The translations under genes and the position numbers were made by a program. 43,922 nucleotides of DNA from a virus: positions 1-43,922 of the IMG/VR virus record IMGVR_UViG_3300033143_002018; one strand, written 5' to 3'. Positions 17,110-31,720 of this stretch are shown here, in pieces. How positions within the stretch are numbered: the stretch's first letter is position 1; each line of letters opens with the position of its first letter. Under the pieces are notes generated by a model. That model was given only the letters and a program-made list of their open reading frames with translations. It made no database searches and was not told the origin of the DNA.

Positions 17110-17634
17110 ATGAATCTTACAGGATACCTTAGTCACGAAGCCCATGGAATGGTTAGTGTAGATGTAGAGAACGCAGGAGGATACACCAGTAATCCGTTGA
17201 CCGTCCCAGTACGGCTAGTTTTTGCCTCAACTTCAAATCCAGGCGGCAACGCTAAAGTAGTATTGAGAGCTTCCTCACTAACAGAAAATCACTCAGCACC
17301 CACTCAATACCTAGAGATATCCAGGGTTCTATCGACCGGAATAATTCTTAAAAGAGTGCTCGAAGAACTACCTACAACCCAAGCGGACATAGACTCTAGA
17401 GACTTTGACGGAGTTATTAATATATTACATGTTAATTATGACCAGTCAGGAAACAATGAGCAAGATTTTCCAGAAATCGCACAATGGGAAACTTTTGATG
17501 TTGAAATACAGACAGCAGGAAAGCTAAACCAGACCGTGGCGATGACCCCTACAATCGGCGGCCCTGATTTTATAAAGTTTAGGGCATCCGGTAACGGCTC
17601 TTTAAGAGCAGTCGTTCCTATGAGAAGTACTTAA
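17110..17634 (+). CDS. structural paralog B, hypothetical beta-sandwich protein
   Basis: 174 residues, ATG after AAAGGAAA (17097-17104). It is a diverged copy of the preceding gene: HGMVSVDVENAGGYTSN aligns with HGMVSIN, and TTQADIDSRDFDGVINIL aligns with TTQAEVDAGATTITLL. It is the last plus-strand gene, followed by a structured 3' region and a strong terminator. No family recognised. Confidence 0.75.
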   Translation: MNLTGYLSHEAHGMVSVDVENAGGYTSNPLTVPVRLVFASTSNPGGNAKVVLRASSLTENHSAPTQYLEISRVLSTGIILKRVLEELPTTQADIDSRDFDGVINILHVNYDQSGNNEQDFPEIAQWETFDVEIQTAGKLNQTVAMTPTIGGPDFIKFRASGNGSLRAVVPMRST

Positions 17635-18183: not shown

Positions 18184-18372
18184 TTAAACGTCTTTATCCA
18201 TTACAGTCTTCCTACCATCTGCCAAAGCATCTTCAATGCACTGGTCAATAGTAATAGTCAGTCTCTCTGACAGTAGAGTTAGAAAACCTTCTGAAGTTCT
18301 CAATCCCTTACTCTTAACATAAGCCTTAACTTTACTAGCTACAACTAGTAGTGGTACTTTCTCTTCAGTCAT
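18184..18372 (-). CDS. histone-fold DNA-binding protein
   Basis: 62 residues, close to the minimal histone fold. Layout seen: helix 1 (VVASKVKAYVKSKG), helix 2 (SEGFLTLLSERLTITIDQCI), loop 2 with GRKTV (residues 53-57) and a short helix 3 (MDKDV). This matches the bacterial singlet-histone pattern known from Bdellovibrio Bd0055 and related proteins, where the R-K-T of loop 2 contacts DNA and an acidic residue of helix 3 follows. Predicted role: dimeric DNA binding, bending or coating of phage or host DNA. It overlaps by 8 bases the acidic 38-aa gene upstream, so both are probably translated together. Family call from motif reading; fold prediction would settle it. Confidence 0.7.
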   Translation of the reverse strand: MTEEKVPLLVVASKVKAYVKSKGLRTSEGFLTLLSERLTITIDQCIEDALADGRKTVMDKDV

Positions 18373-18481
18373 CGTCTTCTCCTATTTCAATAGTAATATT
18401 AATTTCAGCGACTTCTTCGCTATCATCTCCATCTAGTCCTGAGGCATAGCCCCAGACAAACATGTCCCACCAATCTCTCAT
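18365..18481 (-). CDS. 38-residue acidic peptide, coupled to the histone-fold gene
   Basis: ATG at 18481 (minus strand) preceded by AAGGAG five bases upstream, a near-ideal ribosome-binding site. It begins MRDWWDMFVWGYASGL (Trp-rich, possibly membrane- or protein-binding) and ends with a highly acidic stretch (EIGEDDD); about a third of residues are Asp or Glu. Its stop codon lies inside the histone-fold gene (8-base overlap). No family is recognised. Acidic tails are common in histone chaperones and DNA mimics, so a partner of the histone-fold protein is a tempting but unproven idea. Confidence 0.65.
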   Translation of the reverse strand: MRDWWDMFVWGYASGLDGDDSEEVAEINITIEIGEDDD

Positions 18482-18490
18482 AACAACTCC

Positions 18491-19114
18491 TTAATATTCT
18501 AGTCTAGTAGGAAGGTTTACAGGTACGTACTGCCTGTTCATTATAGCAGCGTTAATGTACGTAGTACCTTCTTCTACGTACCTACCATAAGCCTCGTGTA
18601 TATGTCCAAACACATGTATTTTAGGCCTGACTTCCTTAACCCTAGTCAGTAAGGAAGAACACCCACAGTGGTCTCCCTCCAGGTTAGTGTCTAGGATGCC
18701 TCTAGGAGGGCCGTGAGTAATCAGTATGTCAGTGTCTTCTGGGATGCATTCCCACGTCCCTACGATGTCCTCTGGGCCTCTCATGTATGCCCAACCACAG
18801 AACTCAGGGGTAGTAGGAGTTCCGTATATCTTAACTCCGTTAATAACTACGCTCTCGTCTACTAACACTGTTATTCCTCGCTCTTCACAATACCTTCTGA
18901 AAGGTACGTGACCTTTGTCCCAGTCTACTTCGTGGTTTCCTGGAACAATGACTATGTCCTTGTAAAGGTCAAGGCTCCTAGCTAAATAGTCTAACTGCTT
19001 TTTGGTCTCTTTCGTCCTACCTCCGTAAGTAAGATCTCCAGCATGGATGAGTAAGTCTCCTCCTGGAAGTCCAGGCTCCGCACAGTGGGTGTCTGATATA
19101 TATGTTATGTCCAT
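18491..19114 (-). CDS. calcineurin-like metallophosphoesterase, MPPED/UPF0046-like
   Basis: 207 residues. Metal-binding motifs in order: SDTHC (7-11), HAGDLTYGG (~24-32), PGNHEVDW (~58-65), LITHGPPRG (~132-140) and VFGHIHEAYG (~164-173). The GxPTTPEFCGWAY and THGPP features point to the MPPED1/2 (UPF0046) branch of metallophosphoesterases, known mostly from animals and bacteria. Members hydrolyse phosphodiesters such as cyclic nucleotides with Mn or similar metals. The stop-start junction with the 63-aa gene upstream is one base (TAATG). Possible roles are destruction of a cyclic nucleotide defence signal or nucleic-acid repair; the substrate cannot be told from sequence. Confidence 0.88.
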   Translation of the reverse strand: MDITYISDTHCAEPGLPGGDLLIHAGDLTYGGRTKETKKQLDYLARSLDLYKDIVIVPGNHEVDWDKGHVPFRRYCEERGITVLVDESVVINGVKIYGTPTTPEFCGWAYMRGPEDIVGTWECIPEDTDILITHGPPRGILDTNLEGDHCGCSSLLTRVKEVRPKIHVFGHIHEAYGRYVEEGTTYINAAIMNRQYVPVNLPTRLEY

Positions 19115-19305: not shown

Positions 19306-19502
19306 ACACTTTTCTTTCCAGTGGACACTAAGATCTTATCGTCGTGCTTCCAAGTCTTAATAAATACTACGTCGTCTTCCTCTACGTCCAGCTCAAAGGT
19401 AGTAATTTCTCCTGGGCCAACAATCCTAATGTCTTCAAAGTTAGTAATACCTAGTACGCAATTCTTCTTGTTATCGTTTAAATACTTGAATACTTGCTTC
19501 AT
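19293..19502 (-). CDS. hypothetical protein
   Basis: 69 residues, mostly short beta strands (NCVLGITNFEDIRIVGPGEI, DDVVFIKTW), consistent with a small barrel. It overlaps MgtC by four bases (ATGA) and the 63-aa gene by 13 bases. No family recognised. Confidence 0.75.
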   Translation of the reverse strand: MKQVFKYLNDNKKNCVLGITNFEDIRIVGPGEITTFELDVEEDDVVFIKTWKHDDKILVSTGKKSVWGM

Positions 19503-19924
19503 GACTTAACCTTTCTAATTAGAGATTCTATAAATCCTGTAACTGATACTGATATTACCATACCTACAGATAAAAGTAAACCTTCTTCTACTAAACCTAT
19601 ACCTATCAAAGCTCCTATAGCTGATACTACCCATATAAAGGCAGCTGTAGTAAGGCCTGATATCCTATCCTTACCTTTAAAGATAGCTCCTGCTCCTAAG
19701 AACCCTACTCCAGTCACTATCTGAGCAGCTATTCTAGCAGGGTCTACACTACCTAGCAGTATACCTAAGTGAGAGAATATAGCAGCTCCAGAACATATAA
19801 GTACAAACGTCTTAAGGCCTGCGTCTTTATTCCTAAACTCTCTCTCTAAGCCTACTATACCTCCAGCAACGGTAGCAAATAGCATCTTAAGTAATAGTTC
19901 TTGTAGCTCTGGAGTTAATATCAA
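19499..19924 (-). CDS. mgtC: MgtC/SapB-family inner-membrane protein
   Basis: 141 residues with 4-5 membrane segments. The family signatures are clear: GLEREFRNKDAGLKTFVLI (about 25-43), ARIAAQIVTGVGFLGAGAIF (about 64-83) and GLTTAAFIWVVSAIGALIGI (about 90-109). The C-terminal ACT-like domain of Salmonella MgtC is absent, as in many SapB-type short members. MgtC proteins sit in the inner membrane and in Salmonella affect F1Fo-ATPase and low-Mg adaptation. The start is TTG, overlapping the AAA+ stop as TTGA, with a weak ribosome-binding site, so translation likely depends on coupling to the AAA+ gene. In a phage it may tune host membrane energetics; that is inferred. Confidence 0.9.
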   Translation of the reverse strand: MILTPELQELLLKMLFATVAGGIVGLEREFRNKDAGLKTFVLICSGAAIFSHLGILLGSVDPARIAAQIVTGVGFLGAGAIFKGKDRISGLTTAAFIWVVSAIGALIGIGLVEEGLLLSVGMVISVSVTGFIESLIRKVKS

Positions 19925-20829: not shown

Positions 20830-21473
20830 TTTGAATGCTCCCAGTCGATAGCGTTGTATATAGTTGGTACTTCTGTTTTAAATATCTCTAAGATAGCCTT
20901 AGCCACCTCTTGATGCTCTATCTGAGTACCGTTACCAGTACGTAGTTGTAAGTAGTGTATCCAGCTCCTCACAGTACCGTTCATGTACATCCTAGTAGGG
21001 GTCAAACCCTCTGGAAGGAACACTCTTGCCTGCTCCTTGCCTATACCCCTGCCTAAGGCCTCTTTATACCTTTGAAGGTCTTGGGTCCAACTTTCATTTT
21101 GCGTAGCTTCAAACCAATCCTTGTCGCTCTGAGGCATATCGTCGTGTGTGTTTTGTCTGTTCTTATCGTCTTGGCTTCTGGCCTGAGATATAATAAGCTC
21201 TGTTCCTAAGGCTGTAACGTCTTGGTACCTTTGGGAAAATTCCTGATAAGTGAATGACCTGTGCCTAAGTATCTGTCTTGCTATGGTTCTGGAGCAGTTG
21301 ATCTCCACACATATGTTGGCCATTTCGAAAATGGAAAAGTGTTTGTTTCGTATGCAATAGCTTAGCAGCTTAGTATCGTCAGAATCCTGGTTAGCAGGGT
21401 TACTTACTCTTGCTGTATGCATAATAATTTTCTCTGCTTCTGGAGTAGCCCATACTAGTTTAGCTGTTTTCAT
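20826..21473 (-). CDS. thyX: flavin-dependent thymidylate synthase
   Basis: 215 residues, the usual ThyX length. The diagnostic ThyX motif RHR-x7-S-x-R is present as RHRSFTYQEFSQR (70-82), together with the NPANQDSDD and FLPEGLTPTRMYMNGTVRSW segments that contribute FAD and substrate binding. It makes dTMP from dUMP using methylene-tetrahydrofolate and FAD, feeding phage DNA synthesis together with dUTPase, dNMP kinase and RNR in this module. It overlaps the phosphoesterase upstream by 14 bases and the AAA+ gene by four. Confidence 0.97.
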   Translation of the reverse strand: MKTAKLVWATPEAEKIIMHTARVSNPANQDSDDTKLLSYCIRNKHFSIFEMANICVEINCSRTIARQILRHRSFTYQEFSQRYQDVTALGTELIISQARSQDDKNRQNTHDDMPQSDKDWFEATQNESWTQDLQRYKEALGRGIGKEQARVFLPEGLTPTRMYMNGTVRSWIHYLQLRTGNGTQIEHQEVAKAILEIFKTEVPTIYNAIDWEHSK

Positions 21474-22053
21474 CTATGATCTCCTTTATCCTATCTTCAG
21501 ACACTGGGGTGTAGTTATTGCAGTCTACTCCTACGTCAATCATCCTCTTGTCCAGCATAGTTTGAGAGCTAGAGTGGACGTGTCCGTGTAGCAGCCACAA
21601 GCCGTTGTCTTCTATTCTATATTTATCGTAGCGTTTGTCGTGTCTGTCAGAATCTTTTATCTTTTTGTACGGGAAGTGGTTAAGGTTAACTTCGACTCCG
21701 CACACACTAGTAGTAGTTACAGAGTCAATGGATCTCCATCCTGCTGTATAATATTTTTGTTTAACTTCTAAAGCTTTATCAACTTTTCTGCTCATCCTAT
21801 GACCGCTAAAACAACTGTCATGGTTGCCTGTTATCAGCTTCTTATGACCATTCAGTCTCTTAGTTAGTTCTTCGACTGCTCCCAAAGACATGGAGAAGTC
21901 ACCAAGAAAATATACAATATCCCCCTCGCTCACCACACTGTTCCAGTTTTTAATTAGAACCTCATTCATCTCCTCAACAGAGTCGAATGGCCGATCACAA
22001 TACTTGATTATGTTATTGTGATTAAAATGAGTATCAGATACAAAATATTTCAA
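21460..22053 (-). CDS. calcineurin-like phosphoesterase, phage type
   Basis: 197 residues with motifs SDTHFNHNNII (6-16), YFLGDFS (~48-54), LITGNHDS (~73-80), LNHFPYKK and LLHGHVH (~153-159). It belongs to the metallophosphoesterase group with the SDTHFxHxNII start that is common in phages and bacteria. Substrates are unknown; candidates are DNA 3'-phosphates, cyclic phosphates or nucleotides. The start is TTG (22053), supported by GGAGG seven bases upstream. It differs from the MPPED-like enzyme at 18491, so the phage carries two unrelated phosphoesterases. Confidence 0.9.
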   Translation of the reverse strand: MKYFVSDTHFNHNNIIKYCDRPFDSVEEMNEVLIKNWNSVVSEGDIVYFLGDFSMSLGAVEELTKRLNGHKKLITGNHDSCFSGHRMSRKVDKALEVKQKYYTAGWRSIDSVTTTSVCGVEVNLNHFPYKKIKDSDRHDKRYDKYRIEDNGLWLLHGHVHSSSQTMLDKRMIDVGVDCNNYTPVSEDRIKEIIDENS

Positions 22054-27673: not shown

Positions 27674-30220
27674 TTAAATGCCGCAAGAGCCTCCAACACA
27701 TTCATGCTCCTTCTCTTCGTACTCCACTCCCTCTTGTCCGAGAGCTTCTTTCAAGTCTACTCTAGTCAAAGGTTGACCTCCTCTAGAGCCGTCAGGGTAG
27801 CACGTAAACCCTCGTAATCGTTTAGCATATTTTAACAAAGTCTTAGCGTTCTTCTTACTAGTCTCTTCATTATTCTCTTCACTTCCCCAAGGACTCATAT
27901 TACAAGTGGAGCTAATTGCCATATCAACGTACTGCTGTACGTCTGCCTGAAACTTAACCCTCTCTTTAAACGAGATATCGTAGGCATCTTGTATGTTCTC
28001 TAACTTAACTCCAGAGGCCTCTAATCGCTTCACAGCTCCGTCTATTACGTACTGGTAGTGCCAGTCCTTATCCTTTAGGTATCGTCTCTTGTACGCCTTA
28101 CAGAACAGAGGCTCTATGCCTGTAGTAGTCTCTGCTAATATTCCTATAGTTCCTGTAGGAGCAATAGCACGTACTCCTTTTGGAATAGCTACCCCAAGTT
28201 CTTTGGCAGTTATAAAAGCTGACGCATCAGACTCTCTCTTATAAGTATTCAACCATTTGTGCAGTTCTTGGGTAACTTCGTACTTAGAACCTCTAAGCAT
28301 TAACCACTCGTGAACTCCGCCTAGGCCTAATCCTATACGATTGTTCTTAACTCCTACTTCTTTAATTCTTTCTGTAGGTACGTCAGAATAAATGCCGCCA
28401 CACATCAAAAACTTAGTAGATAGATTAACAGCATCGCTAAATTCCTCTTTACTAGTAAACCTGTTCATCCATAGAGTGCCTAAGTTACACTTGTCACTAT
28501 CGTCTTCACTAGTCACTTCACAACAAGCATTTCTAAGAGACTCACTATCTTTTAAAAAGTTGAAAGCCATTCCAGGTTCGGCAGTTTCAAAAGCTTGTTT
28601 ACAATTGTAGTCCCATACTTTTTTAGCATGTTTGTGTAGTTCGTGTTTCTTATCTTCTATCGCAACAAAAAATTCTGTATCATAATTAACAGAAATATTA
28701 GTTCCGTCTAACTTGGCAGGAAAACTAAAGTCAGTTTCCTTCAAGGCTCTTATTTCTTTTGGCCAGTCTTTTACTTCCATGTAGGCGAATATATCTGGGT
28801 GCTTCCAGCTTAGTCCTGACCATATAGCACTACGTCTGGAGCCTCCTTGCATAATATGTCTGCCAGCTTCGTTGACCATTTGCATTAAAGCTATAGGGCC
28901 TGTAGAAAATCCACCAGTCCTTCCTATCGGAGCGCCTTCTTCTCTGACCGAAGAATAATCTACTCCAATTCCTCCACCAGTCATCAAGCTAGAGGTTATT
29001 TTCTGCATTAAGTCTGCCCAACCTTCTCTAGAATCTTCTGCACGAAATAAAAAACAATTAGAAGTGAGCAGACCGTTCGATAGAGTGAAGCTCTCACTGT
29101 TTGTATTAGTCACGCAGTATACGTCCACCTCCACTTTCAGTGGCGTAGTACTTACTACATCAACCCACATCTTGCTAGGCCTAGTGTTTGGTTTGTCTTT
29201 AATCTGGTCAGCTCTTATTAACGGTGCGGAGAAGGGCTTAATACCAATAACACAAAGCTCTCTAGAACTTCCGTTAAAAGGATTTACAGTACTAGCTACG
29301 TGGATTCCCGTAACTACACAGCCTCCCAAAGCTGCTAACTTAGCGATGTTTCTAGCTCTAGTCAAACCTTCGCAGGATATAGTGACAGTACTTGTTTTGG
29401 TAGAGCCGTCAGTTGCTAAGAGTCCCGCAATAAACCCTCTAGCATACTCTGGAGTAACTTGTAAAGACGGTAACTCTTTGTAGGATAACGGTTGTAGTCC
29501 TATTTTGTACCCTGTCTTTATAGTACGTACAGTGTCATAAGACCTTACTGCACCTCCTCCTACAACAATCTCCACAACTTCGTTCTCAAACCAATTAACT
29601 AATTCTTGTTTTTTTGGTCCTATTAAACATACGTGACTATAGTTTCCTGAGGAAGTGCCGTCGCCGAAAATTATACCGTGCTTCACTCCCTCAGAGTCTG
29701 TTTCTATGTTAGTATTAGGTAATGTTAGTGGTATCCGTTTTACTTCTAGAGTATTTACTCTACTCCCATCCGCCTGCCACCATCTGTGAGTGGCTGTAGC
29801 ATCCACGAACTCTCCGTTAGACAATGATAGTCTATACAAAGTATCTTTACCAACTTTTTTAACTACTCCGTACTCCCACTTGCTGAACCTGTTTAAAATT
29901 TTTACTTGTTTATCTTCTTTACTGTCTAATCGGAAGATCCCTTTGTCGGTTACGAACTCAGTCTCTCCGCTGAAGCAATTGTTAACTTGGTGAAGAGATC
30001 TTCCAGCTGAGTATAAATACCGTCCTCCTGGAATAAATTTTCTATCTACCATTAACTGAGTTATTTTTTCTTTATCTTCTGTACTTAGTAACTGTCCGCA
30101 CACATTGTCTACTACTCTATTGCAAGTCTGTTCCCAAGTCTCCTGCCCATTCATACTATACTTCTGAAGGTAAATGTTATGACTGAAAGAATTGTCCCAT
30201 ACGTCATATTTAGCTGTCAT
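27674..30220 (-). CDS. nrdJ: adenosylcobalamin-dependent ribonucleoside-triphosphate reductase (class II) with intein
   Basis: 848 residues from the ATG at 30220 (AAGGAG five bases upstream; a GTG six bases earlier abuts that site). Without the 307-residue intein the enzyme is 541 residues, short for the class. Landmarks: GGRYLYSAGRSLHQVNN before the intein, C389 after it, GGGIGVDYSSVREEG, QGGSRRSAIWSGLSWKHPDI, thiyl-radical Cys566 in NACCE, redox partner Cys578 in CNLG, and C-terminal shuttle cysteines in CVGGSC (841 and 846). It reduces NTPs to dNTPs using a B12 radical. It therefore needs a host that makes or imports cobalamin. It supplies dNTPs with ThyX, dUTPase and dNMP kinase. Confidence 0.93.
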   Translation of the reverse strand: MTAKYDVWDNSFSHNIYLQKYSMNGQETWEQTCNRVVDNVCGQLLSTEDKEKITQLMVDRKFIPGGRYLYSAGRSLHQVNNCFSGETEFVTDKGIFRLDSKEDKQVKILNRFSKWEYGVVKKVGKDTLYRLSLSNGEFVDATATHRWWQADGSRVNTLEVKRIPLTLPNTNIETDSEGVKHGIIFGDGTSSGNYSHVCLIGPKKQELVNWFENEVVEIVVGGGAVRSYDTVRTIKTGYKIGLQPLSYKELPSLQVTPEYARGFIAGLLATDGSTKTSTVTISCEGLTRARNIAKLAALGGCVVTGIHVASTVNPFNGSSRELCVIGIKPFSAPLIRADQIKDKPNTRPSKMWVDVVSTTPLKVEVDVYCVTNTNSESFTLSNGLLTSNCFLFRAEDSREGWADLMQKITSSLMTGGGIGVDYSSVREEGAPIGRTGGFSTGPIALMQMVNEAGRHIMQGGSRRSAIWSGLSWKHPDIFAYMEVKDWPKEIRALKETDFSFPAKLDGTNISVNYDTEFFVAIEDKKHELHKHAKKVWDYNCKQAFETAEPGMAFNFLKDSESLRNACCEVTSEDDSDKCNLGTLWMNRFTSKEEFSDAVNLSTKFLMCGGIYSDVPTERIKEVGVKNNRIGLGLGGVHEWLMLRGSKYEVTQELHKWLNTYKRESDASAFITAKELGVAIPKGVRAIAPTGTIGILAETTTGIEPLFCKAYKRRYLKDKDWHYQYVIDGAVKRLEASGVKLENIQDAYDISFKERVKFQADVQQYVDMAISSTCNMSPWGSEENNEETSKKNAKTLLKYAKRLRGFTCYPDGSRGGQPLTRVDLKEALGQEGVEYEEKEHECVGGSCGI
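29057..29977 (-). mobile_element. intein with LAGLIDADG-type homing endonuclease domain in the RNR
   Basis: 307 residues (82-388 of the host protein), from Cys in CFSGETEF to Asn in LLTSN, followed by the extein Cys389. Splicing blocks seen: N-terminal CFSGETEFVTDKG; block B DATATHRWW with the TxxH motif; and C-terminal ESFTLSNGLLTSN. The penultimate residue is Ser instead of the usual His. Two degenerate LAGLIDADG motifs, HGIIFGDGT (about 181-189) and GFIAGLLATDGS (about 262-273), indicate a homing endonuclease. The insertion point is exactly before the redox-active cysteine, a site hard to lose without killing the enzyme. Confidence 0.9.
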
Positions 30221-30249
30221 CTCCACTCCTTATAAAGTTAGTTAATTGT

Positions 30250-31444: not shown

Positions 31445-31720
31445 CTACCCTCTTTTTTTCTTACGCTTAGCTCTAACTCTAGCTAGTACGATCTCTTCTT
31501 CGTAAAAAGCTTTGAACCTTTTGGTAATTTTTATTTTTGGTCGGTGGTTGTTGTTGCCTGCTGCTTTTGCCGCCTCTTCCCTAATCAAGTTTAGGTGCTT
31601 CAGTTGAGCCTTCAAGGACTGCTCCCATGCAGCAAAGCTTGCTTTCCCTGACAACTTGATAGCCATCGGAGGAGTTTTGTTAGTACCTTGCTTAACAACT
31701 CTGGTGATCGAATCTGTCAT
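31445..31720 (-). CDS. hypothetical basic protein
   Basis: 91 residues, mostly helical and basic, especially the C-terminus (KAFYEEEIVLARVRAKRKKK). It may bind nucleic acid or sit at a membrane surface. One base separates it from the exported coiled-coil gene, and it overlaps the membrane gene upstream by four bases. No family recognised. Confidence 0.72.
   Translation of the reverse strand: MTDSITRVVKQGTNKTPPMAIKLSGKASFAAWEQSLKAQLKHLNLIREEAAKAAGNNNHRPKIKITKRFKAFYEEEIVLARVRAKRKKKRG

Follow-up and report, generated by a model that had tools for sequence, protein, structure and literature searches.

A predicted bacterial-type histone of a tailed phage and the small acidic gene that overlaps it

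A virus contig of 43,922 bases (IMG/VR virus record IMGVR_UViG_3300033143_002018), analysed here over its whole length and referred to as the window, carries a gene for a 62-aa protein that almost certainly belongs to the bacterial-type histones. Evidence that bacterial histones structure the DNA of bacteria dates only from 2023-2025 and, to our knowledge, the phage histone members described so far form a different, tailed class. The gene overlaps a second one, coding for a 38-aa acidic protein, and both ORFs, as well as their 8-base overlap, lie exactly where an earlier note made from the DNA sequence alone had placed them (Table 1).

The phage and its leftward gene cluster

Gene products of the window include a baseplate wedge protein (PHROG 6, E 1e-33) as well as a family A DNA polymerase, a RecA-like ATPase, ribonucleotide reductase, ThyX and an ATP-dependent ligase. 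This combination of a baseplate wedge with a replication and nucleotide gene set indicates that the window comes from a tailed phage. Its structural genes run rightward, the last of them near 17634, while the leftward genes extend from the right end to about 17755, with the histone gene as the second-last member of the leftward cluster. Gene overlaps are common in this genome, and most neighbours of the cluster touch or overlap. No tRNA genes were found in the window, and a host search through its 586-aa tail-region protein gave no convincing relative among 369 Bdellovibrionota and 284 Myxococcota genomes.

Table 1. Positions of the histone gene, the acidic ORF and other features mentioned in the text (window coordinates)
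Feature	Position	Strand	Description
Histone gene	18184..18372	-	62 aa, predicted alpha3 (bacterial-dimer-type) histone; K14, K16, K20; RKTVMDKD loop; R54-D61 clamp
Overlap of the two genes	18365..18372	-	8 bases in which the acidic ORF closes with its stop and the histone ORF opens with its start codon and first codons; kept in sister phage L001
Acidic ORF	18365..18481	-	38 aa; predicted aromatic helix at residues 2-16 (WWDMFVWGY), then acidic tail
Histone ribosome-binding site and start, inside the acidic ORF	18370..18385	-	ATAGGAGAAGACG-ATG; identical in L001
Ribosome-binding region of the acidic ORF	18482..18500	-	ATTAAGGAGTTGTT-ATG, direct reading
Metallophosphoesterase gene	18491..19114	-	Immediately upstream, part of the leftward cluster; Pfam PF00149, E 5.6e-13; order conserved in L001
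MgtC-family membrane protein gene	19499..19924	-	PF02308, E 8e-33
Second metallophosphoesterase-like gene	21460..22053	-	In the leftward cluster
Ribonucleotide reductase large subunit gene	27674..30226	-	307-aa in-frame insert
Basic protein gene	31445..31720	-	91 aa, net +16

Several other genes on the same strand deserve mention in their own right. An MgtC-family membrane protein gene is present in this phage, and the leftward cluster holds a second metallophosphoesterase-like gene, called by sequence only, the first being confirmed by Pfam. The in-frame insert of the ribonucleotide reductase large subunit begins with CFSGETE, ends at SNC and is missing from the 541-aa homologue of the sister phage; it resembles an intein, and Pfam gave it no name. 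The 91-aa protein is strongly basic, ends in RAKRKKKRG, has no Pfam match and, judging from its composition, is possibly another nucleic-acid-binding protein of the phage.

Sequence, predicted fold and distribution of the histone

The histone ORF is preceded by a strong ribosome-binding site (AGGAG-AAGACG-ATG). In phmmer searches of the PDB, its product matched HLp (9qt0, E 2.4e-7), HBb, the Bd0055 protein (8cmp, E 1.1e-6), and the archaeal HTkC (0.0016), and a profile of 53 histone homologues matched HBb at E 2e-25. The residues that are invariant across these 53 aligned homologues, namely S13, K14, V15, K16, K20, R54, T56 and D61, are all kept in the window histone. No family match was obtained for it in Pfam at E<=1 or in PHROGs. 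The miss by PF00808, a model matched by 28 of the 53 aligned sequences (the NCBIfam archaeal histone model reaches 32), is a limit of the model's reach and not counter-evidence to histone homology.

A histone fold is also observed in the AlphaFold model of the monomer (pLDDT 92.5), which consists of a short helix (residues 12-21), a long helix (30-51) and a third helix of one turn (59-61); the layout of helix, long helix, loop and short helix, previously read from the sequence, is thus recovered in the prediction. Foldseek superposition gives the model TM values of 0.80-0.86 against HLp and HBb, at an rmsd of about 1 A. HBb contacts DNA through T8, S9, K10, K12, K16, N22, S24, K52, T53 and R57, with a clamp formed by R51-D58 (PMC11317129). 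The corresponding residues of the window histone are A12, S13, K14, K16, K20, R25, S27, K55, T56 and K60, with the clamp R54-D61; the whole set is kept or conservatively changed, except for T8, which is replaced by alanine as in many cellular relatives. Collectively, the phmmer matches, the invariant residues, the predicted fold and the Foldseek superposition rule out a chance resemblance to histones. The protein agrees with the Bd0055 class, with which the earlier note had compared it, in sequence, in predicted fold and in DNA-contact residues.

Five categories of alpha3 histones were distinguished by Schwab et al. 2024 (PMC11390915). The RKT...D motif, the conserved helix-1 lysines and the lack of extra domains place the window histone with the 'bacterial dimers'. 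Indeed, the modelled fold has the shortened helix 2 and one-turn helix 3 of this category, and the sequence clusters with HBb-like proteins, as the phmmer match to HBb shows. HBb of Bdellovibrio bacteriovorus, itself a 'bacterial dimer', is 41% identical to the window histone over the aligned core, and the two have in common the alpha3 fold, the one-turn helix 3, the R-D clamp, the KT loop and the helix-1 lysines. On the other hand, the window histone is phage-encoded, its core is much less basic, it carries D48, its chain stops at residue 62, one past the clamp aspartate, and its gene overlaps the acidic ORF.

Two other categories were considered and rejected. The 'phage histones' of the same study (for example A0A2E7QIQ9) are likewise alpha3-type and encoded by tailed phages, but they tetramerise through a C-terminal helix and show no RxTxxxD motif (PMC11390915). 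The window histone lacks any such C-terminal helix and does contain the motif, which rules out this class. HLp of Leptospira perolatii, a tetrameric face-to-face (FtF) histone, is the best match of the window histone both in single-sequence comparison and in fold. However, FtF histones join their dimers through an R and an N of helix 2 (PMC11390915), and D48 and D52 occupy the aligned positions in the window histone. Since these aspartates replace the key residues, the tetramer contact is not kept and the FtF tetramer type is ruled out as well. Among virus-encoded histones, the doublets of Marseilleviridae, as cited in PMC11390915, are eukaryotic-type and nucleosome-forming, with two folds per chain, and gave only weak fold matches to the window histone. 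The p6 protein of phage phi29, a small abundant protein structuring the phage DNA (PMC11894785), is without a histone fold, and no relation to the window histone was detected.

Bacterial-type histone genes are very rare in phages. With the window histone or three other histones as query, tblastn found no relatives in 50,697 deposited phage records, and scans of 2.9 million viral contigs revealed only four with such a histone (L001, L002, L003 and L007), a number to be read as a lower bound since the scans rely on exact matches to short peptide motifs. The histone of L001, the sister phage, is 94% identical to that of the window, and the one of L007 about 39%. When the window and L001 are counted as one, four phage lineages carry a bacterial-type histone. 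L003 and L007 are clearly phages, with portal, head protease, exonuclease, Sak4 and SSB genes; in L002, terminase-like and nucleotide genes are present. The module that harbours the histone gene differs from phage to phage, being recombination in L007 and head genes in L003, and one phage histone of the other lineages sits between recombination and nucleotide genes. As a separate observation, the L003 histone gene adjoins a gene (1572-2747 of that contig) for a Mu F-like head protein with an intein/HNH insertion.

Histones of this family are common in bacteria: one genome scan gave 280 confirmed matches, and a histone match was present in 335 of the 369 Bdellovibrionota genomes searched; some Bacteriovoracaceae loci (L055, L063, L073) show apparent tandem histone folds in one reading frame. 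The nearest cellular relatives of the window histone are about 52-55% identical to it. In a tree computed from a matrix of only 57 columns, the window/L001 pair stands beside Myxococcota/Spirochaetota rows, with the fork left open at 92/97.

The overlapping acidic gene

Sequence evidence shows the 38-aa acidic ORF to be a real gene. Ahead of it lies a ribosome-binding site of its own (AAGGAG-TTGTT-ATG), which is strong, as the earlier note had stated, and a 42-aa copy, 89% identical, exists in the sister phage, the two differing in length by indels of 3 and 9 nt that are in-frame only. The dN/dS ratio between them is about 0.19, from 8 changed codons. The last five codons do contain the histone ribosome-binding site and start, and the ORF could in principle be a mere by-product of the A/G-rich site and spacer; such an origin is extremely improbable and is ruled out by the in-frame indels and the conservation, notably that of the N-terminus. 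The best-conserved part is indeed the aromatic N-terminal helix, where 20 residues are identical save one inserted serine, and the middle of the protein varies in length and sequence between the two phages. A low-confidence model (pLDDT 64.5, from two sequences) predicts one aromatic helix, residues 2-16, followed by an unstructured tail. No homologues were detected in the PDB, in Pfam or, by tblastn, in deposited phages. A search with the DNA pattern of WDMFVWGY retrieved only the sister phage from the viral contig collection and nothing from 291 Bdellovibrionota genomes.

The acidic composition of this product, already pointed out in the earlier note, is a real outlier. Its net charge of -12 corresponds to -31.6 per 100 residues, and the next most acidic of the 66 predicted genes reaches -10.3. 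Part of this charge is a consequence of the gene overlap: the I-G-E-D-D near the C-terminus is encoded by ATAGGAGAAGACGATG, which is the histone ribosome-binding site and start. Since the histone Shine-Dalgarno and start codon lie inside the acidic ORF, the GEDDD part of the tail is forced. When the last four acidic residues are left out, the remaining 34 residues still carry -8, and the product is still the most acidic of the window. In both the window and L001, the most acidic terminus is that of the acidic ORF.

The two genes had been interpreted as a unit made of a histone and its acidic partner. Both are real, but the unit was not borne out, the pair being seen only in the window and in its close relative L001. 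No separate acidic ORF was found beside the histones of L002, L003 and L007 or at 79 cellular loci, these histones being only about 40-55% identical to that of the window. A histone gene kept without the acidic ORF in relatives is the outcome that the earlier note had named as refuting the unit. On balance, we lean to reading the acidic peptide as a small phage protein unrelated to the histone, with which it merely shares a transcript. The conservation of its aromatic helix rather than its acidic middle, the frequent contacts and overlaps of cluster neighbours and the restriction of the pair to one phage group all agree with this reading, although it leaves aside that the sole phage gene so charged lies directly against a histone gene and that acidic tails are found in cis in two other phage histones.

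These tails consist of a 21-residue N-terminal extension with a charge of -7 in the L002 histone and a 44-residue C-terminal extension with a charge of -12 in the L003 histone, and both genes have a good ribosome-binding site ahead of the start codon adopted here. The L007 histone has neither an acidic tail nor an acidic partner. Ranked within their contigs by the most acidic 21-residue end, the histones come 4th of 114 in L002, 1st of 9 in L003 and 15th of 50 in L007, and no cellular homologue examined has an extension with a charge below -4. The presence of acidic cis-tails in two of the three other phage histones is a weak hint of a recurrent histone-acidic link. Since the pattern was spotted after the fact, in four lineages and with a crude gene caller, it is treated as a lead.

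Whether the acidic peptide could be a histone chaperone or DNA-mimic partner, binding the phage or host histone and controlling its loading on DNA, was weighed against the same data. Its gene is adjacent to that of the histone, overlaps it and is conserved in both phages, its charge is extreme, and the cis extensions of L002 and L003 point in the same direction. Such a function nevertheless appears unlikely given the loci with a histone and no separate acidic ORF, the bare histone of L007, the imposed GEDDD end, the general abundance of overlaps in this genome and an association noticed only afterwards. Even more doubtful is the wider proposal that phages with bacterial-type histones repeatedly add an acidic module, fused in L002 and L003 or as an overlapping gene in the window and L001, which would serve as a built-in chaperone for histone loading on DNA and stripping from it in replication and packaging. 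That the histone and the acidic peptide work together is only a suggestion.

Charge, selection and possible role of the phage histone

Codons of the window and L001 histones differ by 21 synonymous and 4 non-synonymous changes, and with this dN/dS of about 0.05 the gene is, by sequence comparison, maintained under strong purifying selection. The core net charge is +1 in the window and 0 in L001, compared with +2 to +7 (mean 3.9) in 79 cellular homologues. This loss of charge concerns mainly helix 2, with D48 in place of what is mostly R, N or S in cells and L50 in place of mostly K or R; an acidic residue at position 48 occurs in none of the 49 cellular rows. With so low a core charge, the affinity for DNA could be weak. 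Since the loss spares the known DNA-contact set, DNA binding would be kept and the surface away from the DNA would be altered.

Histone homology, the predicted fold, conservation of the DNA contacts and purifying selection are established for the phage protein at the level of sequence and structure model. Its role is probably that of a dimeric DNA-binding nucleoid protein of the bacterial alpha3 kind, used by the phage during infection. The protein would form a homodimer, which would bind the DNA backbone non-specifically via helix 1 and the L1/L2 loops, like HBb, and could then serve in the infected cell as a nucleoid protein of phage DNA, host DNA or both. A comparable case is Lsr2, a host nucleoid protein of which mycobacteriophages carry copies, the role of the phage copies being unknown (PMC10066036); the window histone would likewise be a phage-borne nucleoid protein, of an unrelated family. 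The acidic peptide would be a separate small phage protein, and of all steps in this scheme, a regulatory action of this peptide on the histone, though possible, has the least support. The occurrence of such a histone gene in three other phage lineages supports a nucleoid role, while D48 and a core net charge below that of all 79 cellular homologues speak against it.

The same charge data suit a serious rival, in which the phage histone serves as a decoy, or as a dominant-negative subunit, that pairs with the host histone by the conserved dimer surface and loosens host chromatin. The loss lies in helix 2 and not at the known DNA contacts, and a histone-bearing host is plausible given the frequency of histones in Bdellovibrionota genomes. 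The loosening itself is proposed to come from the less basic histone and from D48/D52 at the dimer-dimer surface. Almost all DNA-contact residues are kept, however, which would be needless for a decoy; furthermore, the nearest cellular histones are as distant as given above. The decoy has a low probability, and a DNA-binding nucleoid protein is the reading that we retain.

The finding of an HBb-like histone in a phage suggests that such genes move between cells and phages. Should the acidic peptide turn out to be a true partner, a bacterial virus would provide a candidate for a very small histone chaperone. The window histone itself, minimal, HBb-like, under selection and of unusually low charge, may serve as a small test system in which to study the use or disruption of histone-based chromatin by phages.
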